Shown: positions 1-13,767 of the stretch, piece by piece | Numbering within the stretch: position 1 is the first letter of the stretch | Layout of the letters: every line of letters starts with the position of its first letter | Source of the DNA: a virus | IMG/VR virus record: IMGVR_UViG_3300025120_000483 | Location: 1-25,897 of that record | Reading direction: 5' to 3' (one strand) | DNA: 25,897 bases | Notes under the pieces: generated by a model | Seen by the model: the letters and a program-made list of their open reading frames with translations, nothing else | Told to the model about the DNA's origin: nothing | Database searches by the model: none | Program-made: the position numbers and the translations under genes

Positions 1-90
1 GAGCTTTGACCACATTGAGTTTAGTACTTTATCGACAATCGCTTGATTGTATTTTTTGTTAAGCTTTAGCTTATGTTGTTTTATATTCAT
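1..90 (-). CDS. small phage protein, N-terminal fragment cut by window edge
   Basis: The reading frame starts with ATG at 90 and stays open for 30 codons until it leaves the window, beginning MNIKQHKLKLNKKYNQAIVD. It is Lys-rich and I do not recognise it. The start is supported by position: a copy of the conserved promoter-like element (102-126) ends 11 nt upstream, and the leader between them is A/T-only. The fragment lies in the same minus-strand series of tiny genes as its upstream neighbours. The family cannot be judged because most of the gene may be missing. Confidence 0.6.
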   Translation of the reverse strand, partial: MNIKQHKLKLNKKYNQAIVDKVLNSMWSKL

Positions 91-101
91 ATTATTATTA
101 T

Positions 102-126
102 CTATTAGTTATCGTATTTAGTTTGT
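102..126 (-). promoter_or_regulatory. T7-like promoter element, copy 1
   Basis: On the minus strand this reads ACAAACTAAATACGA, then seven bases, then TAG, with the presumed +1 at the G (plus-strand C at 102). It has the same architecture as the three other copies at 774-798, 1135-1159 and 1484-1508. The TACGA block and the nine-base distance to G match the layout of the T7 class promoter, and the bases just before +1 (ATA) also match. It lies just upstream of the fragment starting at 90. It could also be an operator or a host sigma-factor promoter. Confidence 0.6.
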
Positions 127-127
127 T

Positions 128-379
128 TTATTTGCACTCGTGTTTGTAGAAATCATTAATAAAACCGTGAGTTTCATCTAGTAATTCATAGTAATACTCT
201 GCATACTCTTCATCAATTCTATCATTAGCAACATCTTGAGTGATCCACTCTTGCATATCTTCAATATTATTCATAGCGTGAACTAATTGAGTTGAGTAGT
301 AAACTTCAGTACCATCTTTTTCTGTTGGTGTAGTAAATAGAGAACTAGCTACTCCAAGTGTCATTATTATTTTATTCAT
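128..379 (-). CDS. hypothetical small acidic protein, 83 aa
   Basis: This gene of 83 residues has no family I recognise. The N-terminus (MNKIIMTLGVASSLF) is hydrophobic but short and lacks a clear cleavage site, so a signal peptide is possible but weak. The rest is acidic and aromatic, with a helical Glu/Tyr-rich stretch near residues 57-68. It is third in a minus-strand group after the genes at 542-742 and 444-545, and is probably co-transcribed with them, because the sequence between 380 and 443 has no good copy of the promoter element found ahead of other genes here. The 65-bp gap upstream holds small inverted repeats (GAGT/ACTC near 418-430, and ACTACTTACGTAGT at 401-414). Role unknown; an early host-takeover protein would fit the position but is a guess. 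Confidence 0.6.
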   Translation of the reverse strand: MNKIIMTLGVASSLFTTPTEKDGTEVYYSTQLVHAMNNIEDMQEWITQDVANDRIDEEYAEYYYELLDETHGFINDFYKHECK

Positions 380-443
380 ATTATTTATTTATTGTTTAAG
401 ACTACTTACGTAGTTTCGAGTATTAAACTCTCGTCAGTTAAAC

Positions 444-545
444 TTAGTTTGTTATGTAAGCTAATAATATAACTATTATTGCTGTTAATAAAAAGTAACC
501 TAGTACTTCAAATCCATCTGTTGTAAAGTCAGTTTTCTTTTTCAT
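444..545 (-). CDS. tiny single-pass membrane protein, 33 aa
   Basis: This 33-residue frame reads MKKKTDFTTDGFEVLGYFLL and continues as a hydrophobic segment (about residues 15-31, rich in Leu, Ile and Val) to a short polar end. The start is supported by an ATGA overlap: its ATG (543-545) shares bases with the TGA stop (542-544) of the gene at 542-742, the usual sign of coupled translation. The basic N-terminus and single transmembrane helix suggest an inner-membrane miniprotein. Its last codons and stop spell ACAAACTAA, which is also the first half of the promoter element seen elsewhere; this may be chance. Function unknown. Confidence 0.6.
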   Translation of the reverse strand: MKKKTDFTTDGFEVLGYFLLTAIIVILLAYITN

Positions 546-742
546 AATATTTGATTTAGTATTTCGTAAACATCATCTTGTTGTGATTTATCTAGTGACA
601 TAAAGACACCATTAGCCTCACCAGGATAATTGAGTACATGATTTATAGATTGTTGAGTCATTTCTGTTTGATGAACATACTTGTCCATTTCGTCAAAAGC
701 TTTTTGCCATGACCAGTTTGAAGGAGAATTTGAGTGATACAT
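542..742 (-). CDS. hypothetical small protein, 66 aa
   Basis: A 66-residue protein starting MYHSNSPSNWSWQKAFDEMD, with no family I recognise. It is soluble, Gln/Asp-rich and probably helical, with a C-terminal stretch (residues 52-65, DKSQQDDVYEILNQ) that could be an amphipathic helix. The start at 742 follows a copy of the promoter-like element (774-798) and a 31-nt leader made almost only of A and T. It heads a three-gene group: its stop overlaps the start of the 33-residue membrane protein, and the 83-residue gene follows. No Shine-Dalgarno is present. Function unknown; the context is a block of probable early genes. Confidence 0.65.
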   Translation of the reverse strand: MYHSNSPSNWSWQKAFDEMDKYVHQTEMTQQSINHVLNYPGEANGVFMSLDKSQQDDVYEILNQIL

Positions 743-773
743 ATTATTTATATTTATTAGTTATTATTATTAT

Positions 774-798
774 CTTACGACTATCGTAATTAGTTTGT
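774..798 (-). promoter_or_regulatory. T7-like promoter element, copy 2
   Basis: The minus strand reads ACAAACTAATTACGA, seven bases, then AAG followed by ATAATAATAATAAC. The presumed +1 G is the complement of 774, 32 nt from the start codon at 742. Spacing between the TACGA block and the G is identical in all four copies. The leader downstream is also nearly the same as that of copy 3. It drives the group 742 to 128. Confidence 0.65.
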
Positions 799-863
799 GC
801 TGAGTAATATGTTCGTGTTATTTATAGTCGTTAAAGTATTACTATCAACGTCGACTTTTAGTT

Positions 864-1100
864 TTAAGACTGAGTACTTAATTCTCTACAGAATTTTGGA
901 ACAGTATTACTATTTGTATAAGATTTGTACTGTTGGAAACATTGCATTTCTTCAAACTTTTGTTGAAATGTTGAGTAAATTTCATCATGATCATAAGTGA
1001 ATGTGACTTCTTTCTTATTAGTAAATGTAATTACTGTATTTGTACCGAGTAAAGATTTTCTTATTACAAATCTTTTTGTTGTTAAGTTATTAGTTTTCAT
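864..1100 (-). CDS. hypothetical small protein, 78 aa
   Basis: The 78-residue product begins MKTNNLTTKRFVIRKSLLGT. The first half is beta-like and basic with a hairpin pattern (VITFTNKKEVTFTYD, about residues 23-37), and the second half is a polar, Gln-rich helix (FQQKFEEMQCFQQY, about 45-58). I do not recognise the family. Its start lies 35 nt from the presumed transcription start of the promoter-like element at 1135-1159. An overlapping plus-strand frame exists but has no leader or promoter signal, so I take the minus frame as real. Function unknown; probably an early accessory protein. Confidence 0.65.
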   Translation of the reverse strand: MKTNNLTTKRFVIRKSLLGTNTVITFTNKKEVTFTYDHDEIYSTFQQKFEEMQCFQQYKSYTNSNTVPKFCRELSTQS

Positions 1101-1134
1101 AGTTTATATTTATTTATTTAGTTATTATTATTAT

Positions 1135-1159
1135 CTTGTTAGTGTCGTATTTAGTTTGT
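1135..1159 (-). promoter_or_regulatory. T7-like promoter element, copy 3
   Basis: The minus strand reads ACAAACTAAATACGA, CACTAAC, AAG, with the presumed +1 at the complement of 1135. In the stretch from -16 to -9 it matches the T7 consensus AATACGAC exactly, and G is at +1. The leader AATAATAATAACTAAATA before the start at 1100 is shared with copy 2. Between 1160 and 1275 a further partial leader-like stretch (1168-1197) has no gene behind it and may be a decayed unit. Confidence 0.65.
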
Positions 1160-1275
1160 AAGAGTGTTATTTTATTTAGTTATTATTATTAGTTGTTAAG
1201 TCCTACACATGAGTTCTCAGTATCTTACCCTGAATAACTCAGATGTTTTAATTAATTAGTTTATATTTAACTTAT

Positions 1276-1452
1276 TTAGTTAGTATATATTAATTTCATT
1301 AAAGTATTAATTAACATTTGTTCATCTTCAATTGAATTATATTCGCAATCAATTTCTACAAATTCATTTACTTGTTTTTGTATTTCTTTTTTACTTACAT
1401 AGTTTGATTCAAATTGAAAGTGGTTTATAGTATCGTCATTAAAGTATTTCAT
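1276..1452 (-). CDS. hypothetical small acidic protein, 58 aa
   Basis: This 58-residue frame starts MKYFNDDTINHFQFESNYVS and ends with a helical, acidic stretch (residues 32-55). It is supported by the same upstream arrangement as its neighbours: a promoter-like element at 1484-1508 whose presumed +1 is 32 nt from the start codon, and an A/T-only leader containing AACTAATAAATAAATAAC. No family recognised, no membrane segment, one Cys. It is the first gene of the minus-strand block, adjacent to the 1509-1846 non-coding region. Function unknown. Confidence 0.6.
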   Translation of the reverse strand: MKYFNDDTINHFQFESNYVSKKEIQKQVNEFVEIDCEYNSIEDEQMLINTLMKLIYTN

Positions 1453-1483
1453 GTTATTTATTTATTAGTTACATATATATTAT

Positions 1484-1508
1484 CTAAACTATGTCGTATA
1501 TAGTTTGT
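1484..1508 (-). promoter_or_regulatory. T7-like promoter element, copy 4
   Basis: The minus strand reads ACAAACTATATACGA, CATAGTT, TAG, with the presumed +1 G at the complement of 1484. TACGAC and the TTAG ending fit the T7-type pattern. It is 32 nt upstream of the start at 1452 and is the outermost promoter of the minus-strand block. Confidence 0.65.
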
Positions 1509-1697
1509 AATAGTAAAAGCTAAAATATCCTAGAATCTCGGTGGAATTCTCGGACGCAATATCGTATCGCAAATTCGCATATATGCAAAACAAAATCGTG
1601 AAAACGATGGGAACCCCAAAATTTAAAACTGAATTTGGTTTAAAAAACAAAATAAAATTTCAATATTGCAGTACTTTACTTATATACATCTAAAAAA

Positions 1698-1846: not shown

Positions 1847-2416
1847 ATGATGAAAAATAAAAAAGCAGCTGGAGCAGTTAAAAAAATGGCTAAAGGTGTT
1901 AAAGATGCTGACACTAAAGATATGCCAGTAATAGATAGAGAAAAAGACGCTATGAATAAAGACGGAGCTTCAAAAGCTTTTAAAGATAAAACTAGAGGCG
2001 GTCAAAGAAGAGCTCTTAAAAGAGCTAATAAAAGAAAGTACGGAAAAGGAGAAGCTGGAAAAGCTAAAAAAGCGGCTGAAATAGCTAAAGAAGCAGCACT
2101 TGGTGATATGGAAATGATGGGGGTGTCAATGTACGGTAAAAAACACGGGTCTTCTATGTACGGTAAAAAGCATGGATCTTCTATGTATGGCAAAAAGCAC
2201 GGGTCTTCTATGAACGCATACCAAGATAAAGAAGCATCGATGGATGACTATTCTCATGAGAAAAAATTAAAAGCAGACGGAAGATATGAAGCTGCACATG
2301 GTAAAATGGCTAATGCTAAAAATGACTTCAATCACGCACATGCTTTAAAGAAAGACGCAAAGCACGATGCTAAAGGCAGACACTCTATCATGAAGCACAT
2401 GAGAGGTTTTAAATAA
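1847..2416 (+). CDS. Lys/Ala-rich basic repeat protein, probable internal virion protein
   Basis: A 189-residue, strongly basic protein with no recognised family. Residues 40-43 are the Asp-Gly-Ala-Ser motif that recurs in other proteins of this window. Residues 95-121 are three exact copies of the nonapeptide MYGKKHGSS, a variant (His-Gly-Ser-Ser) of the same motif. The rest is Lys/Ala/His-rich and probably helical or disordered. Two start codons are adjacent (1847 and 1850). There is no Shine-Dalgarno; the leader is A-rich. It is the first gene of the plus-strand run, and its stop overlaps the next start (TAATG). Lys-rich low-complexity proteins next to structural genes often enter the virion with DNA, so an internal or DNA-associated role is my inference. 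Confidence 0.7.
   Translation: MMKNKKAAGAVKKMAKGVKDADTKDMPVIDREKDAMNKDGASKAFKDKTRGGQRRALKRANKRKYGKGEAGKAKKAAEIAKEAALGDMEMMGVSMYGKKHGSSMYGKKHGSSMYGKKHGSSMNAYQDKEASMDDYSHEKKLKADGRYEAAHGKMANAKNDFNHAHALKKDAKHDAKGRHSIMKHMRGFK
2129..2209 (+). repeat. three tandem 27-bp units in a coding sequence
   Basis: Units begin at 2129, 2156 and 2183 and each encodes MYGKKHGSS. They differ at third codon positions (for example GGT/GGC, CAC/CAT, GGG/GGA), so the peptide has stayed identical while the DNA drifted. Confidence 0.9.
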
Positions 2417-3054
2417 TGAGTTTAAAAACTAACAGGTACGGAGCAAGTCAAAGAAATGGGCTTACTCCTGGTGGTAAGACAAATAGGTCAATGACTAATT
2501 TAGGTAATAAGACTATTAATGCTGCTGCTAATTCAAACCAAAAGCCACAATACACTGGATCAGGTGATAATTACAGAGATGCGAATAATAATAAAGTTTC
2601 AGGACTTCAAGTTGATGAAGGTAGATTGTCTTCTGTTGTTAGAAAATCGCCTGAAAGACCTCACGTTGTAGCTAGCCCTGGCGCTCTTAAAAATCAAGGT
2701 GGTATAACTGAAAAGCTTTATTTAGATGGTAAGCCTGAAATGAAAGCAATGAGAAGAGGTGAAAAGCTTATTCCTGCCAAGAAAGCAATGGGTAGAATGG
2801 CTACTCCTGTAAAATCGACAATGAGAGGTGAAAAGCTTATTCCTGTCAAGAAAGCGATGAAAACCGCTGGTAAACTAACTCCTGCTAAGACAGCGATGAA
2901 GACCGATAGTAAACCCGCTGGTAAACTAACTCCTGCTAAAACAGAAATGAAACACGAAAAACTCACTCCTGCAGTAAAAATTAATCCAAAAGCAAAAGGC
3001 AGAACTATGAGTGATAGAAAATTTAACAGAATAGATAGAAAACTTAATAAATAA
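2416..3054 (+). CDS. Lys/Pro-rich repeat protein, probable virion accessory protein
   Basis: A 212-residue basic protein of unknown family. The first half is polar and probably disordered and contains a Tyr-Gly-Ala-Ser motif at residues 8-11. Residues about 109-185 are imperfect repeats of a unit like GEKLIPAKKAM or GKLTPAKTAMK, at least five copies, each with Leu, Pro and several Lys. DNA copies are close (2755-2790 against 2824-2859), so the array expanded by duplication. Its ATG shares a base with the preceding stop, so translation is probably coupled. The fibre gene follows after 3 nt. A DNA-binding or scaffolding role inside the particle is plausible but unproven. Confidence 0.7.
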   Translation: MSLKTNRYGASQRNGLTPGGKTNRSMTNLGNKTINAAANSNQKPQYTGSGDNYRDANNNKVSGLQVDEGRLSSVVRKSPERPHVVASPGALKNQGGITEKLYLDGKPEMKAMRRGEKLIPAKKAMGRMATPVKSTMRGEKLIPVKKAMKTAGKLTPAKTAMKTDSKPAGKLTPAKTEMKHEKLTPAVKINPKAKGRTMSDRKFNRIDRKLNK

Positions 3055-3057
3055 ATT

Positions 3058-6000
3058 ATGCCTATAATATATACATTTCCTTCAAAAGGTACTCCTGTAC
3101 TAGCGGATCAAGTTTTAATATCAGACTCCCAAGACGGAGAAGCTACTAAAAACGCTACAATATCATCGATAAAAGATACTATTGATGTAGTTGATCGAAT
3201 TACAGCAGGTTCTGGAATATCTGTATCAAATGCTACTGGTAACATAACTATAGGAAATACAGGTGTGTTGTCTTTAACAGCTGGAACTAACATATCTTTA
3301 TCTGGCTCTACCGGCGCTATTACAGTATCTTCCTTAAGTGTTGGTGGATCTGGAACAGCTAATAAAATAACAAAATGGTCTGCTAATGGAAGTGATATAG
3401 AAAATTCTATAATAACTGAAGACCCTGGAGGACCAGGAATAATTGTAGCAGGCAACGTGTCAGTTGCATCTGGTAGCTATATATCTACTCCAAGTATTTT
3501 AGATGGGTCTGGAGAACTTGGAAGTGCTAATCAAGTTTTAAGCGCTGGGTCTAGTGGAAGTTCTATTGAATGGACTTCAACTTTCAAAGGTGATTTAAAC
3601 GGTACGATAAATACAGCAACTACAGGAGTTACACAAGCTAACGCAGTAGACAACACAACAATAGCCACTACAGCTTATGTAAATAACAAAATAGGTTTAA
3701 TACCTGCTGGATTAGAATATTCTGGAACTTGGAACGCTTTTAATAACACTCCAGCATTGGCAAGTGGTGTAGGCACAACAGGTGCATTTTATATAGTTTC
3801 AACTCCAGGTTCAACTAATTTAGATGGAATTACAGACTGGAAAGTTGGTGACTGGGCTATATTTGTAGAATCAGGAGCTACTGATGCTTGGCAAAAAGTA
3901 GATAACTCTTCTGTGTTAAATGGATCTGGCACTGGACAAAAAGTATCTTTGTGGTCAGGATCTGGAACATCGGTAACTTTAACGGATTCAATAATGACTC
4001 AAAATCCATCTGGTGGACTTTTTGCAGGTCAATATATTGATATTTCAGGAAGTGGTGGGATATCAGCCAGTCAGTTCAACATAGGCGGAAAATTATTAGA
4101 TGGTAATAATTTTCAAGGAATTGATGGATATGTATTATCTAGCACAACTGTAGGCTCAAACAGAAAAACTGCATGGGTTCCTCCTTTGACTGCCGCAACT
4201 ACAACTAATTTAGGTGGTGTAAAAACTGTCGGGCAATTTGGAGGCAGTTACATAGGAAATCCAATTACAACTACATCAGGTAGAAACTATGGTATTGCAA
4301 TAACAAGTGCAGATAGCAAACTTTTAGTTAATGTTCCTTGGACAGACACAACTTACACCGCTGGTAGTAATATTTCTATATCAGGAACTAATGTTATATC
4401 GGCTTCTGTAACAAACTTACCTGTTGCCACTCAATCTGCTTTAGGTGGTATAAAAAGTCATCTTAATTACGGATCTCAAGTTACAGTTAATTCCATTACA
4501 AGTACAGGTTCAAGATTCTATGGTGTTGTAATTAATGATGATGATAAAGCAATGGTAAACGTACCTTGGACAGATACTGGTACAACATACACAGCTGGCA
4601 CAGGGCTTACTCTAACTGGTACAGTTTTTAATGCCAATACTGTTGGTACTCAAAGCCAGGTAGCAGTCAGCGCCAGTTCTACATCCCTAAGGTCGTATCC
4701 TATTCAAACAGGAGCTGCTAGTGGTGCTTCAGGCAGTAATCATCTAGTGGTAAATGTACCTTGGACAGATACAAATACAACATACCAAGCTGGTACTAAT
4801 ATTGATATAGATGGAAGTAATGTTATATCGGCTACTATTCCATTAGCAAGTAGTGCAGTTATAGGTGGTTTTAAATTACTTACTAATACAACTGGTACAG
4901 CTCCTAGTTTTGTCACCACTACTGCAAATAGAAACTATGCAATACAAAGAGATTCTAATGGAAAAGCAATGGTAAACGTACCTTGGACAGGTACAAATTT
5001 TACAGCCGGCACAGGTCTTACTTTAGACGGTACAGTGTTTAATGCTAATGTTGGTGAAACTACTCAAACACAAGCGGCTAATTCAGCTACAGATACTCAA
5101 CTTAGAACTTACGAAATTCAAGTTAATAGTAGTGACGATTTAGTAGTAAACGTTCCTTGGGTAGACACAAATACTACTCCCCAAGCAACAGCAACTACTA
5201 TAGGTGGTATGAAAATATTCTCTGATGCAGTTACAGTGGCTGCTAATCCAAGAACAAATACTGCTAGCAGATCTTACGGTATTCAAATAAACGCTGGTGG
5301 TGCAGGACAGGTTAATGTTCCTTGGACAGATACAACTCCAACTGCATCAGCAAGTATTATAGGTGGTATTAGATTAGCTACTAATACTGTTGCTACTAGT
5401 CAGAATGGTATCTCTACAACTGCAAATAGAAACTATGGACTACAAATAGATTCTAATTCAAGAGGGGTTATTAACGTTCCTTGGACAGATACAACTTATA
5501 CCACGGCAACAAGCAGTACATTAGGTTTAGTTCAAATAGGATATTCTGAAAATGGTAAAAATTATCCTGTAGAACTACTTAATGATCAAATGTTTGTTAA
5601 TGTACCTTGGACAGATACAACATATACCGCAGCTACAAGTAGTACATTAGGCTTGGTTAAAATAGGTTTTACTCAAGCAGCTAAAAATTATCCAGTTCAG
5701 CTATTTAATGAGCAAGCTTATGTTAATGTACCTTGGGCAGATACAAATACAACTTACACCGCTGGCACAGGTCTTACTTTGAGTGGTACAGTGTTTAATG
5801 TTGATGTTGCCACTTCAGGTGTTTTAGGTGGTATAAAAAGTCATCTTAATTACGTATCTCAAGTTACAGTTAATTCCATTACGACTACATCTTCAAGAAA
5901 CTATGGTATTACTCTGAATGCTGACGATAAAGCAATGGTAAACGTACCTTGGACAGATACGGTTACTCCTACAGTAACAGCATCACAAGGTTTAACAAAA

Positions 6001-6756
6001 ACTTCAAATAATATTACTTTAGATATAGCAGATCCTACAACTGGATGGGCTATTCTTGGTGGCGGTCCAGGAGCATCAACATCAGTCATAGGTGGTTATG
6101 CAGGTACTAATGCAACTGGAAACAAAAACTTTGGTATAACTAATTTTACCCAACCTTCTACTGTAACAAGCGCAAATAACAACGTAGCTATAGGATTTGA
6201 CTCTATGGGAACTTCCGTAACAACTGCATCTAATAATGTAGTTATTGGATCAACCGCTGGATCTAGTATGACAACAGCCCTTGATGCCGTTTTAATTGGA
6301 CAAGACGCTGGCAAAGGTATAACTACTGGAGGAGAAAATACTATAATTGGGGCAAACGCTGGTGAAACTATAACTACTGGTAGTAGAAATACTATAATTG
6401 GAAGTGGAGCCATTGCTGGAACTGGAGCTGGTTCAGCATTCGCGACCGTTGTAGGTCGAGACGCTTCAGCAACTAGCTCATCAGTAGCTGTAGGTTCAGG
6501 AGCAATTGTTGCTGGAGCTACTGGCGTAGCGGTAGGTGATGTAGCGAGCACCGCGTCAAACGCTCTAAATGGAATAGCTTTAGGTAAGGGAGCTCAAGCA
6601 ACACTGCGAGGAACAGTAGGAAATGTAGCTATAGGTAGTTCAGCTAATCCAGTTAGTTTAACTGAACCAGCAGAATTTTCTGAGGAATTTGAGTATTTAA
6701 ATGTAACTATAAACGGAAGTCAATACTATATAAGATTATACAAGGCAGCAGAATAA
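3058..6756 (+). CDS. repetitive tail fibre / adhesin with YadA-head-like C-terminal region
   Basis: This 1232-residue protein probably forms a trimeric fibre that binds the host surface. The N-terminal 45 residues (beginning MPIIYTFPSKGTPVLADQVL) resemble the virion-attachment end of other marine phage fibres. About residues 215-290 form a compact Trp-rich domain (GTWNA, WKVGDWAIF). From about 424 to 965 there are ten copies of the motif VNVPWTDT or close variants, each ending a repeat of roughly 45-75 residues that often contains a G-G-[IVM]-K turn. Residues about 1041-1196 are Gly/Ala-rich repeats of the type NVVIGSTAG and SVAVGSGA, as in the left-handed beta-roll of YadA-type adhesin heads. 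The end is a short beta segment (YLNVTINGSQYYIRLY). No intramolecular chaperone peptidase is visible. Internal DNA repeats suggest copy-number change by recombination. Confidence 0.85.
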   Translation: MPIIYTFPSKGTPVLADQVLISDSQDGEATKNATISSIKDTIDVVDRITAGSGISVSNATGNITIGNTGVLSLTAGTNISLSGSTGAITVSSLSVGGSGTANKITKWSANGSDIENSIITEDPGGPGIIVAGNVSVASGSYISTPSILDGSGELGSANQVLSAGSSGSSIEWTSTFKGDLNGTINTATTGVTQANAVDNTTIATTAYVNNKIGLIPAGLEYSGTWNAFNNTPALASGVGTTGAFYIVSTPGSTNLDGITDWKVGDWAIFVESGATDAWQKVDNSSVLNGSGTGQKVSLWSGSGTSVTLTDSIMTQNPSGGLFAGQYIDISGSGGISASQFNIGGKLLDGNNFQGIDGYVLSSTTVGSNRKTAWVPPLTAATTTNLGGVKTVGQFGGSYIGNPITTTSGRNYGIAITSADSKLLVNVPWTDTTYTAGSNISISGTNVISASVTNLPVATQSALGGIKSHLNYGSQVTVNSITSTGSRFYGVVINDDDKAMVNVPWTDTGTTYTAGTGLTLTGTVFNANTVGTQSQVAVSASSTSLRSYPIQTGAASGASGSNHLVVNVPWTDTNTTYQAGTNIDIDGSNVISATIPLASSAVIGGFKLLTNTTGTAPSFVTTTANRNYAIQRDSNGKAMVNVPWTGTNFTAGTGLTLDGTVFNANVGETTQTQAANSATDTQLRTYEIQVNSSDDLVVNVPWVDTNTTPQATATTIGGMKIFSDAVTVAANPRTNTASRSYGIQINAGGAGQVNVPWTDTTPTASASIIGGIRLATNTVATSQNGISTTANRNYGLQIDSNSRGVINVPWTDTTYTTATSSTLGLVQIGYSENGKNYPVELLNDQMFVNVPWTDTTYTAATSSTLGLVKIGFTQAAKNYPVQLFNEQAYVNVPWADTNTTYTAGTGLTLSGTVFNVDVATSGVLGGIKSHLNYVSQVTVNSITTTSSRNYGITLNADDKAMVNVPWTDTVTPTVTASQGLTKTSNNITLDIADPTTGWAILGGGPGASTSVIGGYAGTNATGNKNFGITNFTQPSTVTSANNNVAIGFDSMGTSVTTASNNVVIGSTAGSSMTTALDAVLIGQDAGKGITTGGENTIIGANAGETITTGSRNTIIGSGAIAGTGAGSAFATVVGRDASATSSSVAVGSGAIVAGATGVAVGDVASTASNALNGIALGKGAQATLRGTVGNVAIGSSANPVSLTEPAEFSEEFEYLNVTINGSQYYIRLYKAAE
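4441..4499 (+). repeat. direct repeat in the fibre gene, copy A
   Basis: This 59-bp stretch is repeated at 5824-5882 with one mismatch by my reading (G for T in the codon after ...CTTAATTAC). Most other fibre repeats have diverged far more at DNA level, so this pair is a recent duplication or gene-conversion product. Confidence 0.85.
5824..5882 (+). repeat. direct repeat in the fibre gene, copy B
   Basis: Second copy of the 59-bp repeat at 4441-4499, 58 of 59 bases the same. The two flank about 1.3 kb of fibre repeats, so recombination between them would delete or duplicate several binding units in frame (the distance between copies, 1383 bp, is a multiple of three). Confidence 0.85.
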
Positions 6757-6773
6757 AAAAACTAAATAACCGA

Positions 6774-6789
6774 ATTATCAAGTGATAAT
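6774..6789. promoter_or_regulatory. perfect inverted repeat between fibre and chaperonin gene group
   Basis: ATTATCA (6774-6780), AG, TGATAAT (6783-6789) lies in the 69-bp gap between the fibre gene and the 97-residue gene. With no T-run it is a poor terminator; an operator or a small mRNA hairpin is possible. The motif AAGTGATAATA recurs at the right end of the window after another gene (about 25879-25889). Confidence 0.35.
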
Positions 6790-6825
6790 ATAAATAACCA
6801 ACGTTTAACTTAAAACCAAAATACA

Positions 6826-7119
6826 ATGACGTTTTTATATACCAGCACTAATACGTGGTCTAGTGCACCACAACCAACAGAAGATACCATTAAATATTGG
6901 AAACATATTTCAAGTAAGAAAAACTGGAGAATAGTTCAATTACCTAATGGATTTTTACAAACCGAATATAATAGCATTGACAATCCAGAAGTATGGATCG
7001 ATGTTACCAGAAGAGAAACACTAGGTGGAGCAGAACAAGCAATAGATGCATCTATTGAACATTATGCTAAAAAGCTAGAGTTTACCAAAGGACCGAAAGT
7101 AATTAAAACCTTCGAGTAA
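6826..7119 (+). CDS. conserved hypothetical phage protein, 97 aa
   Basis: A soluble 97-residue protein starting MTFLYTSTNTWSSAPQPTED. The middle (about residues 30-63) looks like a small beta-sheet with aromatic residues (NWRIVQLPNGFLQTEYNS, VWIDVTRRE), and the last third is a helix (GGAEQAIDASIEHYAKKLEF). I recall similar proteins in marine phages near tail or fibre genes, but no function. It lies after the fibre, 69 bp downstream, and 32 bp before GroEL, so it may be a fibre-assembly or tail accessory protein; that is inferred from position only. Leader A-rich with no Shine-Dalgarno. Confidence 0.75.
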   Translation: MTFLYTSTNTWSSAPQPTEDTIKYWKHISSKKNWRIVQLPNGFLQTEYNSIDNPEVWIDVTRRETLGGAEQAIDASIEHYAKKLEFTKGPKVIKTFE

Positions 7120-7151
7120 TATTCAAAATCAATTATATCAAATTAAATTAA

Positions 7152-8699
7152 ATGCAAGAATTAAAGTTAGTTAAAAATCTGGCTTTTGGTGATGGTGCCA
7201 GAAGTCAGATATTAACTGGGGTAGAAAAACTTACTAATGCAGTAGGGTCTACTTTAGGAGCAAGTGGTAAATGTGTTATATTAGAAGATGCTAATGGCAT
7301 GCCACAGATAACAAAAGATGGAGTAACAGTAGCTAATGCAGTTACATTACAAGATTCTTTAGAAAATATTGGAGCTACGTTAATAAAGCAAGCAGCACAA
7401 AGAACAGTATCAGATGCAGGTGACGGTACTACGACTGCTACAGTATTAGCAAAAGCTATTTTAGATGAAGCTTATAAACACAGTGAACTAGATACTTCAA
7501 GAGAATTAAAAGAAGGTATTGACTCAGGTGTTAAGAAAGTTATAGCTTATTTAGAAAAAACATCAAAAAAAGTAAAAGGTAAAAAAATTGACCAAGTGGC
7601 TACAATATCAGCCAATAATGACAAAGAGCTTGGGAAGATTATAGGAGAAGCATTTAGATTAGTAGACGAAACAGGTATTGTCATGATGGAAACAAACGAA
7701 CAGCCTGAGACAGTAGTTGAGTTAATAGAAGGCGTGCAATATGATCAGCCCTTGAAAAACAACCACTTTATTACCAACAATGAAAAGGGCACGGCTGAAC
7801 TTGAAAATCCGTTGATTCTAATTGTAGAGTCAGTAATACCCAACGTGCGGAAGATTCAGTCAGTTCTTGAACATGTAATAAAGACAGGTAAAAGTTTGCT
7901 TATAATAGCAGATGTTGACCCACAAGTAGTTTCAGCACTTTCAATGAACAAAGTAAAAGGAAACATAAAGGTTAACATTATAGATGCACCGGTTTATGGT
8001 ATTAGTAAAAAGGATACTCTAAATGATTTATGCGCAGTTACTGGTGCTACACTTATTAATGAAGATCTAGGTGATGATATGGATATAATAAGTCCAGAGC
8101 ATTTAGGTAGCTGTTTAAGAGTTATAACTAATCACGAGGAGACAATAATGAAGGTTGATTTATCTAATAATAAAGATGTTGAAGATATAACTAACTTATT
8201 AGAAACTCAAATAAAAGAAACTAAAAATCCAAATTTAATTATTAGACTAGAAAGACGTTTAGCTAAGTTAAAAGCTAAGGTTGCTACAGTTAAGATTGGT
8301 GCTAACTCTGAAATAGAATTAAAAGAAAAAAGAGATAGAGTAGAAGATGCTATTTGTGCTACAAAAGCTGCGATCAAAGAAGGTATAGTGCCAGGAGGCG
8401 GTATAGCTTTATTAAACGCTGCACAGCAATTAAAACCAATGTCAATGGGCGAAGAAGTACTTTATTGTGCTATTAAAGAACCTTATAAATTGATACTTAA
8501 AAATGCTGGCGTTGAAGATTATAAAACACCAGAAGTAAAAGGCATGGGATTGAATGTGGTTACAGGAAATACGGTTGATATGGTAAAAGCCGGAATTATA
8601 GATCCTTTGCTAGTTACTAAAAGTGCACTAATGAACGCAGCCTCAGTGGCCACAACAATATTATCTACTGATTGTGTTATTAACAATGTTAGAGCATGA
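7152..8699 (+). CDS. groEL: group I chaperonin GroEL, phage-encoded
   Basis: At 515 residues this is a full GroEL without the usual Gly-Gly-Met tail. It should form a ring that folds proteins with ATP. Equatorial ATP-site residues are kept: ITKDG (Asp56, equivalent to E. coli Asp52), GDGTTTATVLA (Asp91, equivalent to Asp87), RVEDAICATKAAIKEG (Asp399, equivalent to Asp398) and GIIDP near 484. The phosphate-loop sequence is LGASG, not LGPKG, so the usual Pro is missing. In the apical domain the positions of E. coli Tyr199 and Tyr203 read Leu and His (QPLKNNHFIT), while the next Phe is kept, so substrate or co-chaperonin contacts have changed. GroES follows with an ATGA overlap. Capsid or fibre proteins are the likely clients. 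Identification is secure; clients are inferred. Confidence 0.97.
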   Translation: MQELKLVKNLAFGDGARSQILTGVEKLTNAVGSTLGASGKCVILEDANGMPQITKDGVTVANAVTLQDSLENIGATLIKQAAQRTVSDAGDGTTTATVLAKAILDEAYKHSELDTSRELKEGIDSGVKKVIAYLEKTSKKVKGKKIDQVATISANNDKELGKIIGEAFRLVDETGIVMMETNEQPETVVELIEGVQYDQPLKNNHFITNNEKGTAELENPLILIVESVIPNVRKIQSVLEHVIKTGKSLLIIADVDPQVVSALSMNKVKGNIKVNIIDAPVYGISKKDTLNDLCAVTGATLINEDLGDDMDIISPEHLGSCLRVITNHEETIMKVDLSNNKDVEDITNLLETQIKETKNPNLIIRLERRLAKLKAKVATVKIGANSEIELKEKRDRVEDAICATKAAIKEGIVPGGGIALLNAAQQLKPMSMGEEVLYCAIKEPYKLILKNAGVEDYKTPEVKGMGLNVVTGNTVDMVKAGIIDPLLVTKSALMNAASVATTILSTDCVINNVRA

Positions 8700-8956
8700 A
8701 AGCAGTAGGTAAATTTATAGTTATAGATCCAGTCAAGGAAACTGATGTAACTACAAAAGGTGGTTTAATCTTAGCTGAAAAGCAAAGAGAAGATATTAGA
8801 TATAGAAGAGCTAAGGTTATAGAACCTGGCTCTGAAGTATCTGTATTAAAAAAAGGTGATGAAATTTATTATGATAAATCAGCTGGATTTAATATTGAAA
8901 TAAATAAAGAAGAATATAAAGTTATTAAAGAGTTTGATGTAGTTATTATACTATGA
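8696..8956 (+). CDS. groES: co-chaperonin GroES, phage-encoded
   Basis: An 86-residue GroES, slightly shorter than the bacterial protein (about 97). It should cap the GroEL ring encoded just upstream. The N-terminal strand (MKAVGKFIVIDPVKE) is followed by a mobile loop with KGGLILAEKQRED, where Gly-Gly-Leu-Ile-Leu corresponds to the GroEL-binding tripeptide region Gly-Gly-Ile-Val-Leu. VLKKGDEIYYDKSAG matches the conserved V-x-x-G-D segment, and the end is FDVVIIL. Its ATG overlaps the GroEL stop, and its stop overlaps the next start, so the three genes are probably translationally coupled. Confidence 0.93.
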   Translation: MKAVGKFIVIDPVKETDVTTKGGLILAEKQREDIRYRRAKVIEPGSEVSVLKKGDEIYYDKSAGFNIEINKEEYKVIKEFDVVIIL

Positions 8957-9387
8957 GAAAGTTAACTTCTGGGGATTTAAAAGAACTAGGTTTACTTAAA
9001 CATTATAGAATAATTAGAAAATGGGCTTGTAAAACTAATAACTTAAATGATGCAGAATTAGAATTACTAATATATCTCGATGCTATAGATATGTTTACTA
9101 AAGATGATTTTATAAAAGGTACGTACTCATTCAGCTGGGATAACAGGCGCTGGAACAAGTTATTGAAACAAGGGTGGATTATAGTGTGGAGAAAAAGAAA
9201 CCACACCACTCAAAAATATCATATATATAAAGTTTCCTATAAGTGCAAACAGCTGATAAGTCGCATGTACCGTATAATATTAGGCGAAGAAGATATGCCT
9301 ACAAAAAAATTAGAAAAAAGTAATAGATATAGTTATAAAGTAATTACTAAATCAATAGATTACGTTAACAAAGACAAAACAAGATAA
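8953..9387 (+). CDS. possible winged-helix DNA-binding protein, 144 aa
   Basis: A basic 144-residue protein. Residues about 15-100 fit a winged-helix or MarR-like layout: a helix (LKHYRIIRKWACKTNN), a helix (DAELELLIYLDAIDMFT), then a recognition-type segment (WDNRRWNKLLKQGWIIVWRK) and a beta wing ending in KYHIYKVSYKCK. This is pattern reading; no database support. The gene is ATGA-coupled to groES. A regulator or DNA-binding virion component are both possible. Bases 9121-9230 (GCTGGGATAACAGGCGCTGG and beyond) are more G/C-rich and use different codons from the neighbours, perhaps from recombination. Confidence 0.6.
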   Translation: MRKLTSGDLKELGLLKHYRIIRKWACKTNNLNDAELELLIYLDAIDMFTKDDFIKGTYSFSWDNRRWNKLLKQGWIIVWRKRNHTTQKYHIYKVSYKCKQLISRMYRIILGEEDMPTKKLEKSNRYSYKVITKSIDYVNKDKTR

Positions 9388-9388
9388 T

Positions 9389-10531
9389 ATGGCTTATAAA
9401 CAACCTAAAAATACTCCTTTGCATAATGACGGTGCTTCAGCTGTCGGTATAATAGCAGGAATAGGTGCTGGTATTGCTAAATTAGCAACAGCAGCAAAAG
9501 CGGCTAAAGTAGCTAAATTAGCAGCAACAGCAGCAAAAGCGGCTAAAGCAGCTAAAGCTGGTAAAACAATTGCTACTGCAGCAAAAGCAGCTAAAACAGC
9601 TAAAGCAGCTAAATTAGCAGCTAAATCAACTAAACTAGCGAAAGCAGGTAAAACAGGTAAAGCTGCAAGAGTTTTGAAAAGGTCTGGAAAAGTAGCTGAT
9701 AAGGCTAAAGCTATTGGTGAAAAAGCAACTAACAAGGCTTTAAATGCTGGAAAGAAAATGGAAGGCAAGCTTATGAAACAAGTTGATAGGCAAATGGGTA
9801 GAAGTCTTAAAAGTGGAGAAAAAGAATTAGCTAAAGCAGCAAAGTCTCAAGCAAAAGCTGATGGAACTTATTCACCGATTAAAGATGCAATAGGTAAGGC
9901 TAAAGACGGAATAAATAAAGGTTTTGACAAAGCTTCTGATATAACAGGTCAATCTGCAGATGATTTAAAAGCAAAAGCACTTCAACTTGGTATTAATCAA
10001 ACTTCTAATTTAGTTCAAAAACAAAAAGCTAAAAACCAGTCATCACTTACAAAAGAAGATTTTCACCAATCGCTAGGTGTTACAGAAGAAGAGCCACAAA
10101 TAGTTCAACAATCTTATCAACCAGAAGATAAGTCAAGCTCTTATAGCAACCCAACTGGAGCTTCAATGGTTAATAAAAAAAGTAACACAACAGTTCCAAA
10201 AGGATATTTATCTAGTCCTCCTGAAAATCAAAAAGCTCCTTCAACAAATTATCAAAGATTTTTTCAAAACTTAGCTAACAATAGTGTAAATGCCAACATA
10301 GGTGGTGTTAAAGTTAATGTAGGTCACTTAGGTTTAATAGCTGGTCATTTAATTGGAAAAGGCGTTGATGCTGTTAAAACAAAGAAAAGATTAAACGGTA
10401 TTAAAAAACAAGATAAAATTAAAAACGAATCAGCTGCTAGAGCTAAAGAAGAAGTTGCTAATAAAAAAATAATGCAAGATATTGAAAATCAAGAAAACAA
10501 TATTGCTAATAAAACTTTTAATAAAAAATAA
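9389..10531 (+). CDS. Ala/Lys-rich helical protein, probable internal virion protein
   Basis: A 380-residue protein with three regions. Residues 14-17 are the Asp-Gly-Ala-Ser motif near the N-terminus. Residues about 20-120 are a long run of AAKAAKxAK-type units, which would form a cationic, Ala-rich helix like the tails of histone H1 or bacterial histone-like proteins. The middle (about 200-290) is polar and includes a Thr-Gly-Ala-Ser variant. Near 310-330 there is a short hydrophobic segment (VGHLGLIAGHLIGKGV) that might insert into a membrane. No family recognised. Candidate roles are DNA condensation in the head or an ejected inner-core protein; both are inferences from composition and position. 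Confidence 0.7.
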   Translation: MAYKQPKNTPLHNDGASAVGIIAGIGAGIAKLATAAKAAKVAKLAATAAKAAKAAKAGKTIATAAKAAKTAKAAKLAAKSTKLAKAGKTGKAARVLKRSGKVADKAKAIGEKATNKALNAGKKMEGKLMKQVDRQMGRSLKSGEKELAKAAKSQAKADGTYSPIKDAIGKAKDGINKGFDKASDITGQSADDLKAKALQLGINQTSNLVQKQKAKNQSSLTKEDFHQSLGVTEEEPQIVQQSYQPEDKSSSYSNPTGASMVNKKSNTTVPKGYLSSPPENQKAPSTNYQRFFQNLANNSVNANIGGVKVNVGHLGLIAGHLIGKGVDAVKTKKRLNGIKKQDKIKNESAARAKEEVANKKIMQDIENQENNIANKTFNKK

Positions 10532-10536
10532 AAATT

Positions 10537-10710
10537 ATGCCAAGTTACGGAGAAAAACAAGCACCAGCAGGTAAAGTTCTACTAAATAAGTGCAAGCCTG
10601 TTGTAGGAACTAGAATTATGAAAAGTAATAATTCAACAATAACACCTGATCTAAAACAAATAGATAATATACCTTACAAAGGAAACGCAGTAATAAACGC
10701 AAATAGATAA
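10537..10710 (+). CDS. small conserved-looking protein, 57 aa
   Basis: A 57-residue frame beginning MPSYGEKQAPAGKVLLNKCK and continuing PVVGTRIMKSNNSTITPDLK to the stop TAA (10708-10710), which overlaps the next start. It fills the gap between the 380-residue gene and the membrane protein, with a 5-nt gap before it and coupling after it, which supports it being real. It is basic and Pro/Asn-rich with one Cys and no membrane segment. No family recognised and no function suggested beyond a small accessory virion or lysis-block protein. Confidence 0.6.
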   Translation: MPSYGEKQAPAGKVLLNKCKPVVGTRIMKSNNSTITPDLKQIDNIPYKGNAVINANR

Positions 10711-10871
10711 TGGATATGGAAGATTTGAAGTTGTACTTACTGAATGCGTCTTCTTTTACTCTAGCCACATTAAACTGGGTAGAGCCAATGTTAGAAATAC
10801 TACTACTAGCTTTAACTATGGGTTATACTATTCATAAATGGCTATTGTTGCACAAAAAAAATAAATCATGA
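10710..10871 (+). CDS. small membrane protein, holin candidate, 53 aa
   Basis: The 53-residue frame MDMEDLKLYLLNASSFTLAT... has an amphipathic N-terminus, then a hydrophobic segment (about residues 28-47, Leu-rich) and a basic tail ending HKKNKS. Its start overlaps the preceding stop (TAATG) and its stop overlaps the next start (ATGA). The topology of one transmembrane helix with a charged C-terminus, and the amidase two genes downstream, fit a class III-like holin or another lysis-associated membrane protein. There is also a two-TM holin-like protein at 14862-15308, so which one acts as holin is open. Confidence 0.7.
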   Translation: MDMEDLKLYLLNASSFTLATLNWVEPMLEILLLALTMGYTIHKWLLLHKKNKS

Positions 10872-11413
10872 AAAATAATGACGGAGCATCACAAACTTAT
10901 GAAGAGTTTTTAAATAGAAATGGTCTATTAAATGCTTACAATCAAAGAGCTGCAGAAGCAGAAGCTAAGACAAAGAGTGGAGGAGATTATTCATCGGCAA
11001 TAATGAATTCAGATGGTACATACACAACGGTTGTAGATGATAGTACTGAGTTTCGAGCAAATAAAGCATTTAATAAATTTAATGCTGTAGCAAAAAAAAA
11101 TACAAATCCTTTTGCAAACGCATCAGCTTTTAGAGCTAAAAATGCTCAAAATCAACTAGACAACTTAAATGTTGGTAATTCCGCTAGAATGGCAAGAGAA
11201 GCTGACAATGCTAGAGACGCTATAATAGACGGAAAAGGGGATACTCAAGAAGACTTAGCAGCAAATTCACAAACTATATCGCCTGTTGCAGGACCGCCTA
11301 TGAGCAATGGAACTGGATCTGCAAGGCCAACGTTTAGCGAAAGAGCTTCAAAAAATATTAAAGAAATTAATAAAGGAGATTCTATAAAAAACATTTTATT
11401 TAAAAAGAAATGA
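10868..11413 (+). CDS. polar DGAS-motif protein, 181 aa
   Basis: This 181-residue protein carries the Asp-Gly-Ala-Ser motif at residues 5-8, immediately after its start (MKNNDGASQTYEE). The rest is polar, Ala/Asn-rich, probably mostly helical and partly disordered, with a Pro/Gly stretch at about 143-156 and a basic end. No family recognised. It overlaps the holin candidate (ATGA) and the amidase (ATGA), so it is translated with the lysis genes. The N-terminal placement of the motif resembles that in the 380-residue protein. Role unknown; a virion-associated protein is possible. Confidence 0.65.
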   Translation: MKNNDGASQTYEEFLNRNGLLNAYNQRAAEAEAKTKSGGDYSSAIMNSDGTYTTVVDDSTEFRANKAFNKFNAVAKKNTNPFANASAFRAKNAQNQLDNLNVGNSARMAREADNARDAIIDGKGDTQEDLAANSQTISPVAGPPMSNGTGSARPTFSERASKNIKEINKGDSIKNILFKKK

Positions 11414-11820
11414 GATTAGTAAAAGAAATTATAATACATTGCTCCGCAACTAGAGAGGGACAACAAGTTTCAGTAGATACTATTAGAGATTGGCATTTGG
11501 CCAAAGGTTGGAATAATATAGGTTATCATTTTTATATTGATTTAGACGGAACAATAAATAAAGGTCGTGATATTGATAAAATAGGTGCTCATTGCAAAGG
11601 TCATAATCGTAATTCAATAGGAATTTGCTATTGCGGTGGTGTTGAGACTGATGGTAAGACACCTAAAGATACAAGAACACAAAAACAGAAAGATAGTCTC
11701 TTAAACGTGCTTAAAACACTTAAAGCAATGTACCCAGAGGCAGTTATTTATTCACACAGCGAGTTTGCTAACAAAGCATGCCCGTCATTTGACGCAACAG
11801 AGGAGTATGAAAATATCTGA
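11410..11820 (+). CDS. N-acetylmuramoyl-L-alanine amidase, T7 lysozyme type (endolysin)
   Basis: The 136-residue enzyme should cut the amide bond between N-acetylmuramate and L-alanine in peptidoglycan and so release phage progeny. It is an Amidase_2 domain alone, close in length to T7 lysozyme (about 150). Zinc ligands are visible: His10 in IIIHCSAT, His116 in YSHSEFANK and Cys124 in KACPSF. The catalytic Tyr39 (NNIGYHF) and Lys122 match T7 lysozyme Tyr46 and Lys128. The segment GHNRNSIGIC matches NHNSIGVC of T7. T7 lysozyme also inhibits its RNA polymerase; if this phage uses a T7-like polymerase, a similar link is conceivable but unsupported. No signal peptide, so a holin is needed. Starts within the preceding stop. 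Confidence 0.95.
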   Translation: MRLVKEIIIHCSATREGQQVSVDTIRDWHLAKGWNNIGYHFYIDLDGTINKGRDIDKIGAHCKGHNRNSIGICYCGGVETDGKTPKDTRTQKQKDSLLNVLKTLKAMYPEAVIYSHSEFANKACPSFDATEEYENI

Positions 11821-12163
11821 AAACACAGAATTTAAAATAGATGTAAAAACAGTAATAGGTATAATCATGTTAACAACTACTTTAGTTGGTATGTATTATT
11901 CACTGCAAGATGATATTGACTTAGCTAAAAGGTTACCACCAACAGAAGTTAAAAGATTAGAGTATGATTTAAAAGAGCAATGGAATCATGCTAATATAGA
12001 AGATCTAAAAGAAAGAGTTGACATGATGGAACAGATGGGTGATATACTATCTGAAGAGATTAAAGTTCTTTCTACACTAGTTAAAGATGGTACAAAGACT
12101 GATGGCAAGTTAGATGAGTTAGCTAAACAAGTTTTAGCATTAAAATCAAAAAAACGTAGATAA
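11807..12163 (+). CDS. membrane-anchored coiled-coil protein, spanin (Rz-like) candidate
   Basis: I start this protein at ATG 11807, giving 118 residues, because an earlier in-frame ATG at 11765 lies deep inside the amidase gene and would add only an unremarkable N-terminus. After a short polar start (MKISENTEFKID) there is one transmembrane helix (about residues 15-31, VIGIIMLTTTLVGMYY), then about 85 residues of charged helix with heptad-like spacing and a KSKKRR end. The layout (N-terminal anchor, periplasmic coiled coil, position overlapping the endolysin by 14 nt) fits an inner-membrane spanin. No outer-membrane lipoprotein partner is seen. A tail or holin accessory role is the alternative. 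Confidence 0.65.
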   Translation: MKISENTEFKIDVKTVIGIIMLTTTLVGMYYSLQDDIDLAKRLPPTEVKRLEYDLKEQWNHANIEDLKERVDMMEQMGDILSEEIKVLSTLVKDGTKTDGKLDELAKQVLALKSKKRR

Positions 12164-12294
12164 TGGAAAAAGAATATAAACCTCACATGATGTATAAAGA
12201 CTGTAAAGAAGTAATGGCTAAAACTATGAAAAAACATCTTTCTTTAAAGAAAAAAGGTTATGATCACAAAAAATCTAAAGACTGTAAAAAATAA
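12163..12294 (+). CDS. tiny Lys-rich protein with two Cys, 43 aa
   Basis: A 43-residue frame, MEKEYKPHMMYKDCKEVMAK followed by a Lys/His-rich tail ending KSKDCKK. It starts with a TAATG overlap on the spanin candidate and ends with a TAATG overlap on the next gene, so it is tightly packed and probably real. Very basic, with Cys14 and Cys41 perhaps binding a metal or forming a disulphide. No family recognised. It belongs to the run of small basic proteins from 12163 to 13978. Confidence 0.6.
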   Translation: MEKEYKPHMMYKDCKEVMAKTMKKHLSLKKKGYDHKKSKDCKK

Positions 12295-12452
12295 TGGGAA
12301 AAATTAGTCCAGCTTGTAAAGCAGCAGCAAAAAAGAAATTTAAAGTATGGCCAAGTGCTTACGCTAGTGGTTGGGGCGTCCGATGTACAAAAGCTGGTGG
12401 CCCTGGCAATTATGGTGGTGGATCTAAACTTAAGAAACGTGGGAAAGATTAA
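12294..12452 (+). CDS. small viral PSAYASGWGVRC-motif protein, 52 aa
   Basis: This 52-residue protein starts MGKISPACKAAAKKKFKVWP and contains the segment PSAYASGWGVRCTKAGG. I recall this short module (PACK-A-A-KKKF, then [YW]PSAYAS) in many marine phages and also in large DNA viruses of algae, with no known function. It ends in a Gly/Lys-rich tail. Two Cys are present. The next module-bearing gene overlaps its 3' end by 14 nt in the +1 frame, and in other viruses such modules are found together in various orders. A DNA- or capsid-associated role is possible. Confidence 0.7.
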   Translation: MGKISPACKAAAKKKFKVWPSAYASGWGVRCTKAGGPGNYGGGSKLKKRGKD

Positions 12453-13098
12453 AGGAGGCGGAACTAGTAAAGTTTGCCTGCCTGCTTCTAAGGTAAGATC
12501 AATGAGTACTGCTGAAAAAAACAAAGTAGTTAACGCTAAAAGATCAGCTGCAGCTTCCGGAAAATACAAAAGATCGAGTTCATCTAACGTTAAAGGTGCT
12601 CGTAAAAAAGGAGCTACACTTAGAGATTGGTTTGAAAAAGAAAACTGGATAAACGTAGCTACAGGTACACCTTGTGGCGGTGGTTCAAAAAAGCGTAATA
12701 GAAAAGATGGTGCTTCAATGAAAAAATCAACCCCTTGTTGGAATGGCTTTATAAAAAAAGGCATGAAGAAGAAAGGTAATAGGATGGTTAACAACTGTGT
12801 TAAAGCAGATGGTGCTAGTGCAGCTGATCCTAGAAAAACTATAGGCAAAGGTAAGAATTTTAATAAAGCTAATCCTACAGGTACAGGAGGTAAAGCTGGT
12901 GGTGGTATGACGCAAAAAGGTGTTAATGAATACAAGCGTAATAATCCAGGTAGTAAATTAAAAACAGCTGTCACAAAAGATCCGTCAAAGCTGAAACCAG
13001 GAAGTAAAGAGGCTAATCGTAGAAAATCATTTTGTGCTAGATCAAAAAGCTGGAAAGGTGAAAGAGGATTAGCAGCTAGAAGAAGATGGAACTGTTAA
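12439..13098 (+). CDS. multi-module basic Cys-rich viral protein, probable GTG start
   Basis: I place the start at GTG 12439, giving 219 residues beginning MGKIKGGGTSKVCLPASKVR, because the frame's ATG at 12355 lies entirely within another gene's conserved motif. Modules in order: CLPASKxRSMS (about 13-23); LRDWFEKENWINVATGTPCG (about 61-80); Asp-Gly-Ala-Ser; CWNGFIKKGMKKKGNRMVNNC (about 100-120); a second Asp-Gly-Ala-Ser; NPGSKLKTAVT and RKSFCARS ending in RRRWNC (about 165-219). I recall these modules from marine phages and algal giant viruses, without a known role. Lys/Arg-rich and Cys-containing, so nucleic-acid or metal binding is likely. An AAAGGAGG sequence at 12450-12457 has no start behind it. 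Confidence 0.75.
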   Translation: MGKIKGGGTSKVCLPASKVRSMSTAEKNKVVNAKRSAAASGKYKRSSSSNVKGARKKGATLRDWFEKENWINVATGTPCGGGSKKRNRKDGASMKKSTPCWNGFIKKGMKKKGNRMVNNCVKADGASAADPRKTIGKGKNFNKANPTGTGGKAGGGMTQKGVNEYKRNNPGSKLKTAVTKDPSKLKPGSKEANRRKSFCARSKSWKGERGLAARRRWNC

Positions 13099-13109
13099 AT
13101 TAAATAAAA

Positions 13110-13262
13110 ATGAAATCAAGAGGTTTAGGCGATAGCATAGAAAAGTTTACAAAAGCAACAGGTATAAAAAGAGTTGCAGATATGATACCAGGCGGTTGCG
13201 GTTGTGATGATCGTAAGCAGTGGTTCAATAATAATTTTCCTTATAACATGAATAAAAAATAA
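13110..13262 (+). CDS. small GCGC-motif phage protein, 50 aa
   Basis: A 50-residue protein, MKSRGLGDSIEKFTKATGIK, then a GGCGCDDRKQWFN segment and a FPYN end. I recall the pattern G-x-G-D-x-[IV]-x-K-x-T-K-A-T-G-I, followed by C-x-C-x-x-R and N-x-x-F-P-Y, from many Bacteroidota and marine phages, usually near structural genes. The two Cys (30 and 32) may bind metal. The ATG at 13110 follows an A-rich leader of 11 nt. Function unknown. Confidence 0.75.
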   Translation: MKSRGLGDSIEKFTKATGIKRVADMIPGGCGCDDRKQWFNNNFPYNMNKK

Positions 13263-13266
13263 AACA

Positions 13267-13767
13267 ATGGGATATAAAAGTGACGCACAAAGAAAAGCTG
13301 TTCATGCTTCAAAGGCCGAACAAGGAGCTTCTAAAAAGTTTCCAGAAATAAAGAAAAAGAACGAAGGTAAATTCACTGCATGGGTAGAAAAGAATATGGG
13401 TGGTATGGACACTTGTAAAGCTGCTAGCAAAGTAATGAGATCTAAAACAAAAAAATACTCTTCAGCTGTAGTTAAAATGGCTAACTACGCTAATAACTTT
13501 GGTTGTAAGACTAAGAAAGATGGAGCTAGTTTTAATCCTAAGTTAAAGAAAGCAGTGGCTGATGGAAAAATAAAAGGTAAGTTTGCTGAAAAAATAATGT
13601 CTTCTGATGGAGCTTCATTAAGTGCAAAACGTGCAGCTAAAAAAGTAGCTTCAGGTCAATTACACAAAAAAATGAGTCCAGCTGAAAAGCTAGAAGCTAT
13701 AAAAAATAAAAGTGCAAGATTTACTGTAGGAGTAAAAGAAGGCACTCCTATGAAAAAGAAAAAATAA
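13267..13767 (+). CDS. basic DGAS-motif protein with KFTAWVEKNM module, 166 aa
   Basis: A Lys-rich 166-residue protein in modules. Residues 1-17 (MGYKSDAQRKAVHASKA) form a short motif common in phage virion-like proteins. About 36-84 is a module GKFTAWVEKNMGGMDTC...SKYSSAVVKMANYANNFGC with two Cys, which I recall in marine phages with unknown function. It holds two Asp-Gly-Ala-Ser motifs (about residues 87-90 and 115-118) and one Gln-Gly-Ala-Ser (20-23). The C-terminus is basic (MKKKK). It seems to be built from the same short parts as the gene at 12439-13098. Probable virion or DNA-associated role, inferred from composition. Confidence 0.75.
   Translation: MGYKSDAQRKAVHASKAEQGASKKFPEIKKKNEGKFTAWVEKNMGGMDTCKAASKVMRSKTKKYSSAVVKMANYANNFGCKTKKDGASFNPKLKKAVADGKIKGKFAEKIMSSDGASLSAKRAAKKVASGQLHKKMSPAEKLEAIKNKSARFTVGVKEGTPMKKKK

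Follow-up and report, generated by a model that had tools for sequence, protein, structure and literature searches.

Phage-encoded sigma factors are known from T4 (gp55) and from SPO1 (gp28 and gp33/gp34). Promoters of the sigma-70 type usually allow a spacing of 16-18 bp, and in the holoenzymes known so far the A at -11 and the T at -7 are flipped out of the helix by sigma region 2. T7-class promoters, which are read by a single-subunit phage RNA polymerase, conserve their melting region. In flavobacterial hosts, the promoter box is TAHHTTTG (PMC6847099). We describe here four elements of a marine virus contig that very probably act as promoters of a phage regulon, predicted from their sequence to be served by the multi-subunit RNA polymerase of the host together with a phage factor of the sigma-70 family. 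The promoter motif itself had no match in the literature searched.

Results

The window and its two gene blocks

The window, that is, the whole stretch of DNA analysed, is an entire IMG/VR contig of 25,897 bases. Its nearest relative is a contig of 63 kb (G046), in which TerL is 94% identical. The plus strand carries a structural block with TerL, portal, a capsid-type protein, amidase and holin, and the left end holds small minus-strand genes, listed here together with five late-block proteins:

1276..1452, minus strand: early mini-gene, 58 aa, conserved in G033 (93%)
864..1100, minus strand: early mini-gene, 78 aa, 97% identical in G046
542..742, minus strand: early mini-gene, 66 aa, 91% identical in G046
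128..379, minus strand: early mini-gene, 83 aa, promoter of the GATAATA type absent directly ahead
1..90, minus strand: early gene MNIKQHK..., start only, running off the contig end, 93-100% identical in G046 and G033
1847, 9389, 10868, 12355 and 13267, plus strand: late-block proteins bearing the tetrapeptide DGAS

The downstream minus-strand mini-genes are real, since the 78-, 66- and 58-aa reading frames are 91-97% identical in G046 or G033. Ahead of the 83-aa gene (380-541, minus strand), a single ACAAACTAA lies close to small inverted repeats and is accompanied by neither TACGA nor GATAATA. In the divergent region between the two blocks (1556-1745), sequence blocks are identical in G046 and G033, and a strong minus-strand hairpin is followed by T's (z -5.5); this region might act as a terminator or play a part in replication or packaging. 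A search for Rfam families in the window found none. The late block includes a GroEL gene (7152-8699, plus strand; 99% identical in G033, 91% in G046), and DGAS occurs seven times in its five proteins listed above (1847-13767), where shuffles lead to an expectation of about zero. The closely related G046 and G033 contain the same tetrapeptide six to seven times, and the other relatives no more than twice.

A promoter family in related viruses

Four minus-strand elements had been predicted ahead of the mini-genes, and all four were found at the predicted sites and on that strand, matching ACAAACTANNTACGANNNNNNNWAG with 0 mismatches. At up to three mismatches, shuffles of the window yield about one match, so that this pattern alone is only moderately significant inside the window. 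In viral contigs at large, the exact pattern is present in at least 120 stretches, often in several copies each. When 46 records were scanned with two mismatches allowed, the sites proved to be clustered, mostly 4-10 together and on a single strand, and a reversed control pattern gave almost none. The matrix scan suggested by the original prediction was run with a matrix from the relatives and returned 184 sites scoring 20 bits or more across 1.52 Mb, against 0 sites at this threshold in Markov decoys. These sites occupy one strand only in each genome, and 113 of them (61%) lie wholly within the 6% of sequence outside reading frames of at least 60 aa. Altogether, 545 unique sites, selected on positions 9-30 of the motif only, were collected in uncultured marine tailed phages, from records that are mostly incomplete metagenome contigs; they are placed in the early/replication block.

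Copies ahead of the plus-strand structural genes are absent from the window, as had been noted before, and this holds in the other contigs as well. Separate control of early and structural blocks was rightly proposed, the structural block being devoid of such sites, and the description of these elements as phage-specific promoters appears to be right, too.

Architecture of the element and predicted start

An alignment of 121 unique sites revealed a conserved element longer than originally reported, YACAAACTAAATACGA-N9-GATAATA. What had been described as an A/T leader after 'WAG' is in fact a second near-invariant block, GATAATA, whereas the nine bases between the two blocks are loosely conserved (0.06-0.33 bits at positions 16-23). 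The spacing is rigid: N9 occurs in 371 sites, N8 in 1, and no other length between 6 and 12 in any.

At position 37, which took no part in site selection, a purine stands in 97.7% of 426 sites (61% A and 37% G), the subset of the 545 in which an ATG lies elsewhere than at positions 35-37. In the same sites, position 36 leans towards pyrimidine and G reaches at most 7% at positions near 37. The original prediction had put +1 at the G in position 25. Because a purine (98%) is fixed 12 nt past this G, the G most probably represents -12 of a -10 box, with the predicted start 12 nt further downstream. If position 37 is taken as +1, the upstream box extends from -37 to -22 and GATAATA from -12 to -6, with an A at -11, a T at -7 and a purine +1 about 7 nt past T-7. 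Judged from the alignment, GATAATA with its fixed purine is the geometry of the sigma-70 family. On this numbering, the four putative promoters of the window are composed as follows:

1494..1509, minus strand: promoter 4, upstream box (TACAAACTATATACGA, -37 to -22)
1478..1484, minus strand: promoter 4, -10 box GATAATA, predicted +1 the G at 1472
1145..1160, minus strand: promoter 3, upstream box (TACAAACTAAATACGA)
1129..1135, minus strand: promoter 3, -10 box GATAATA, predicted +1 the A at 1123
784..799, minus strand: promoter 2, upstream box (CACAAACTAATTACGA)
768..774, minus strand: promoter 2, -10 box GATAATA, predicted +1 the A at 762
112..127, minus strand: promoter 1, upstream box (AACAAACTAAATACGA)
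96..102, minus strand: promoter 1, -10 box GATAATA, predicted +1 the A at 90

Promoter 4 has a predicted leader of about 20 nt, to the ATG at 1452, and the predicted +1 of promoter 1 doubles as the A of its ATG, so that this transcript is predicted to be leaderless. Across the family, an ATG starts exactly at position 37 in 106 of the 545 sites (~19%), and about one fifth of the sites would consequently yield leaderless mRNAs. This predicted share is far above the 5.5% of leaderless mRNAs in F. psychrophilum (PMC9723704).

The position of the elements a short way ahead of start codons would also suit operators or RNA leader elements. Such a function is scarcely credible in view of the fixed purine after a pyrimidine-leaning base, the geometry of GATAATA and the ATG at +1 in 19% of sites.

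Phage polymerases as candidate readers

The original prediction ascribed the elements to a T7-family single-subunit phage RNA polymerase starting at the conserved G. AATACGA and the later TAG do coincide with letters of the T7 consensus, and the rigid spacing also speaks for it, but a T7-type reader is extremely improbable. PF00940 (RNA_pol) had no match in any of 39 related phage contigs, while the T7 control was detected at E=1e-109. The supposed -9 to -1 stretch is nearly unconserved, the contiguous conserved promoter including a melting region at -4 to -1 is lacking, and the alignment places the fixed purine of the predicted start at position 37 rather than 25. A genome without phage RNA polymerase, together with 5' ends mapping elsewhere, had been named as evidence against the T7 reading; the first of these holds for the related contigs, the window's own genome being incomplete.

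Another phage polymerase that escapes recognition, for example within a virion protein of ~3,000 aa, might read these promoters. A giant polymerase protein is annotated in Crassvirales, phi14:2 among them, and the phages with the motif encode a giant protein of no assigned identity. Against this stand the giant protein of G045, for which searches of PHROGs, Pfam and PDB sequences returned no polymerase, and the lack of any credible PF00623 match in 10 contigs in which controls were detected; moreover, a polymerase of this kind would leave the sigma gene described below unexplained. We consider it very unlikely. A single weak PF00623 match, pursued as a sign of a multi-subunit-type polymerase, sits in a frame full of stops and was discarded.

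A sigma factor encoded by the phages

Relatives whose contigs reach the replication block, including G046, encode a protein of ~250 aa with sigma-70 regions 2 and 4. In order to avoid circularity, only contigs picked by the motif were counted for its presence: 16 of 18, read whole, carry the gene, and the other two, G033 (21 kb) and G049, show no replication genes (G049: by its ORF list). Pfam Sigma70_r2 and Sigma70_r4 are each above cut-off in some members, and a profile of 51 members matches RpoD, FliA and SigA in the PDB at ~1e-8. An AlphaFold model (mean pLDDT 81) matches sigma-A chains with a Foldseek probability of 1.00 and a low whole-chain TM of ~0.3. With regions 2 and 4 and a sigma fold, the protein belongs to the sigma-70 family.

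Motif and sigma gene were both absent, at the search sensitivity used, from the cultured phages phi38:1, phi46:3 and elemoA and from the environmental genome MW202828. At 80 sigma loci, half-sites are oriented 287 sense versus 3 antisense, and a site within 60 nt of the sigma gene itself was found at only 2 loci. The contig of the window contains neither the sigma gene nor that of its partner (see below); judging by close relatives, both would lie beyond its left end. In one contig of 129.5 kb (G052), the sigma gene, the partner and the promoter cluster are each present twice (clusters at ~13-21 kb and 75-84 kb); it represents either two joined genomes or a duplicated block.

A probable helix-turn-helix partner and variation of the upstream box

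A protein of ~206 aa with a C-terminal helix-turn-helix is usually encoded just upstream of sigma, often with an overlap of 14 nt, and G046 carries both. Pfam HTH_7 and HTH_11 are above cut-off in this partner, and outside the short helix-turn-helix no clear match was found among solved structures. In elemoA (NC_055852, 20143-21039), a phage with neither sigma nor motif, there is a weak match (E 5e-4) to the partner family.

Upstream boxes differ among lineages, while sigma stays similar. Among 112 unique sigma loci, those with a partner have AC at -36/-35 in 332 of 362 sites and those without it CG in 35 of 39. In six partner-less loci, which are those carrying five or more sites, TCGAAA takes the place of TACAAA in the far-upstream box, and whole-contig searches of G011, G064 and G065 found no partner. 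The CG-type loci form one group in a tree, mixed with the partner-bearing locus L417, and thus reflect few independent events. A strict rule linking partner to box is broken: L373 and L381 lack the partner, keep TACAAA and have lost TACGA, and L417, L346 and L350 possess it and have other boxes. These exceptions leave the partner a plausible, not a proven, reader of the upstream box. A covariation check of sigma region 4 against the change of the distal box found no group-specific residue. A replacement gene in partner-less phages was considered and dismissed, as the reading frame ahead of sigma in these phages encodes a pyrimidine-dimer-glycosylase-like protein that is shared across the group.

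The presence of the partner next to sigma in nearly all phages with the motif, and the altered distal box of the six partner-less loci, could also mean that a host sigma reads the -10 box with the 206-aa protein as activator at the upstream box, in the manner of T4 middle promoters with MotA/AsiA, the phage sigma serving another class of genes. We regard this as unlikely: the partner-less L318, L369 and L379 retain GATAATA and sigma, L417 and L346/L350 combine the partner with other boxes, and T-8, T-6 and G-5, which belong to the -7 box of flavobacteria, are missing from GATAATA. The mismatch of GATAATA to TAHHTTTG (PMC6847099) makes the host primary sigma an unlikely reader. The original prediction had correctly stated that the elements are unlike the Bacteroidota TAnnTTTG box, which is absent from the promoter matrix at -12 to -5, and counts of Bacteroidota-type promoters were not above those in shuffles. 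Related Cellulophaga and Flavobacterium phages suggest a host in the Bacteroidota. Host assignment via MAG bins was abandoned, because the bins disagree.

Discussion

We infer from these data that the phage sigma reads the sites, and likewise the role of its partner. Most likely, the phage sigma would join the host core polymerase, probably with a DNA-binding partner, and thereby redirect host RNA polymerase. Region 2 of the sigma would recognise GATAATA (-12 to -6) and position the start; recognition of the 16 bp upstream (-37 to -22) would fall to sigma region 4, to the 206-aa helix-turn-helix protein or to both. Transcription would begin at the purine 12 nt past the G of GATAATA. Several early mini-genes would each have their own promoter, and the plus-strand structural block would be controlled otherwise.

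The totally rigid spacing, unlike the usual freedom of sigma-70 promoters, speaks against reading by sigma, as do the lack of a group-specific residue in region 4, the variation of upstream boxes beside a similar sigma and the rarity of sites directly ahead of the sigma gene. The rigidity would be explained only if both boxes were read by a single rigid complex. A two-protein form of phage initiation may exist in this abundant group of phages, in which sigma fixes the -10 box and the adjacent helix-turn-helix protein recognises a modular upstream box held at a fixed distance, with many leaderless transcripts and an upstream box that changes between lineages, once along with loss of the helix-turn-helix protein. 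We put forward this fuller scheme tentatively, at somewhat less than an even chance.

From sequence alone, our analysis attributes a transcription strategy to uncultured marine phages that form a widespread group. Their early genes can be recognised by a very clean promoter matrix, two proteins are named as candidates, and the natural variation of the upstream box, including partner-less lineages, makes it directly testable which protein reads which box. If confirmed, the system would be a candidate for orthogonal expression in Bacteroidota, provided that the hosts belong to this phylum, for which the related phages are the sole indication.

Compared with known systems, the proposed mechanism resembles that of T4 gp55 and the SPO1 sigmas, in that a phage protein of the sigma family would turn host RNA polymerase to a class of promoters specific to the phage. 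It differs from them in its promoter, a long 16-bp upstream box plus GATAATA, in a sigma with recognisable regions 2 and 4 that is similar to RpoD/FliA, and in the placement of sites in the early/replication block instead of ahead of structural genes. With T4 middle promoters, where MotA/AsiA appropriate sigma, it shares the combination of an upstream box with a -10 box, for which a DNA-binding protein of the phage is the candidate reader. The differences are a -10 box that departs from the host consensus, the presence of a phage sigma, a longer upstream box, and a partner with no detected similarity to solved structures outside its short helix-turn-helix. The Bacteroidota primary sigma promoter (-33 TTTG / -7 TAnnTTTG) has the same overall geometry and A-11 and T-7 in common with the phage element, which lacks T-8, T-6 and G-5 and has a strong upstream box. 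The T7 class promoter shares the letters AATACGA and TAG, whereas the phage element has a predicted start 12 nt further downstream, an extra GATAATA block and an unconserved melting region.
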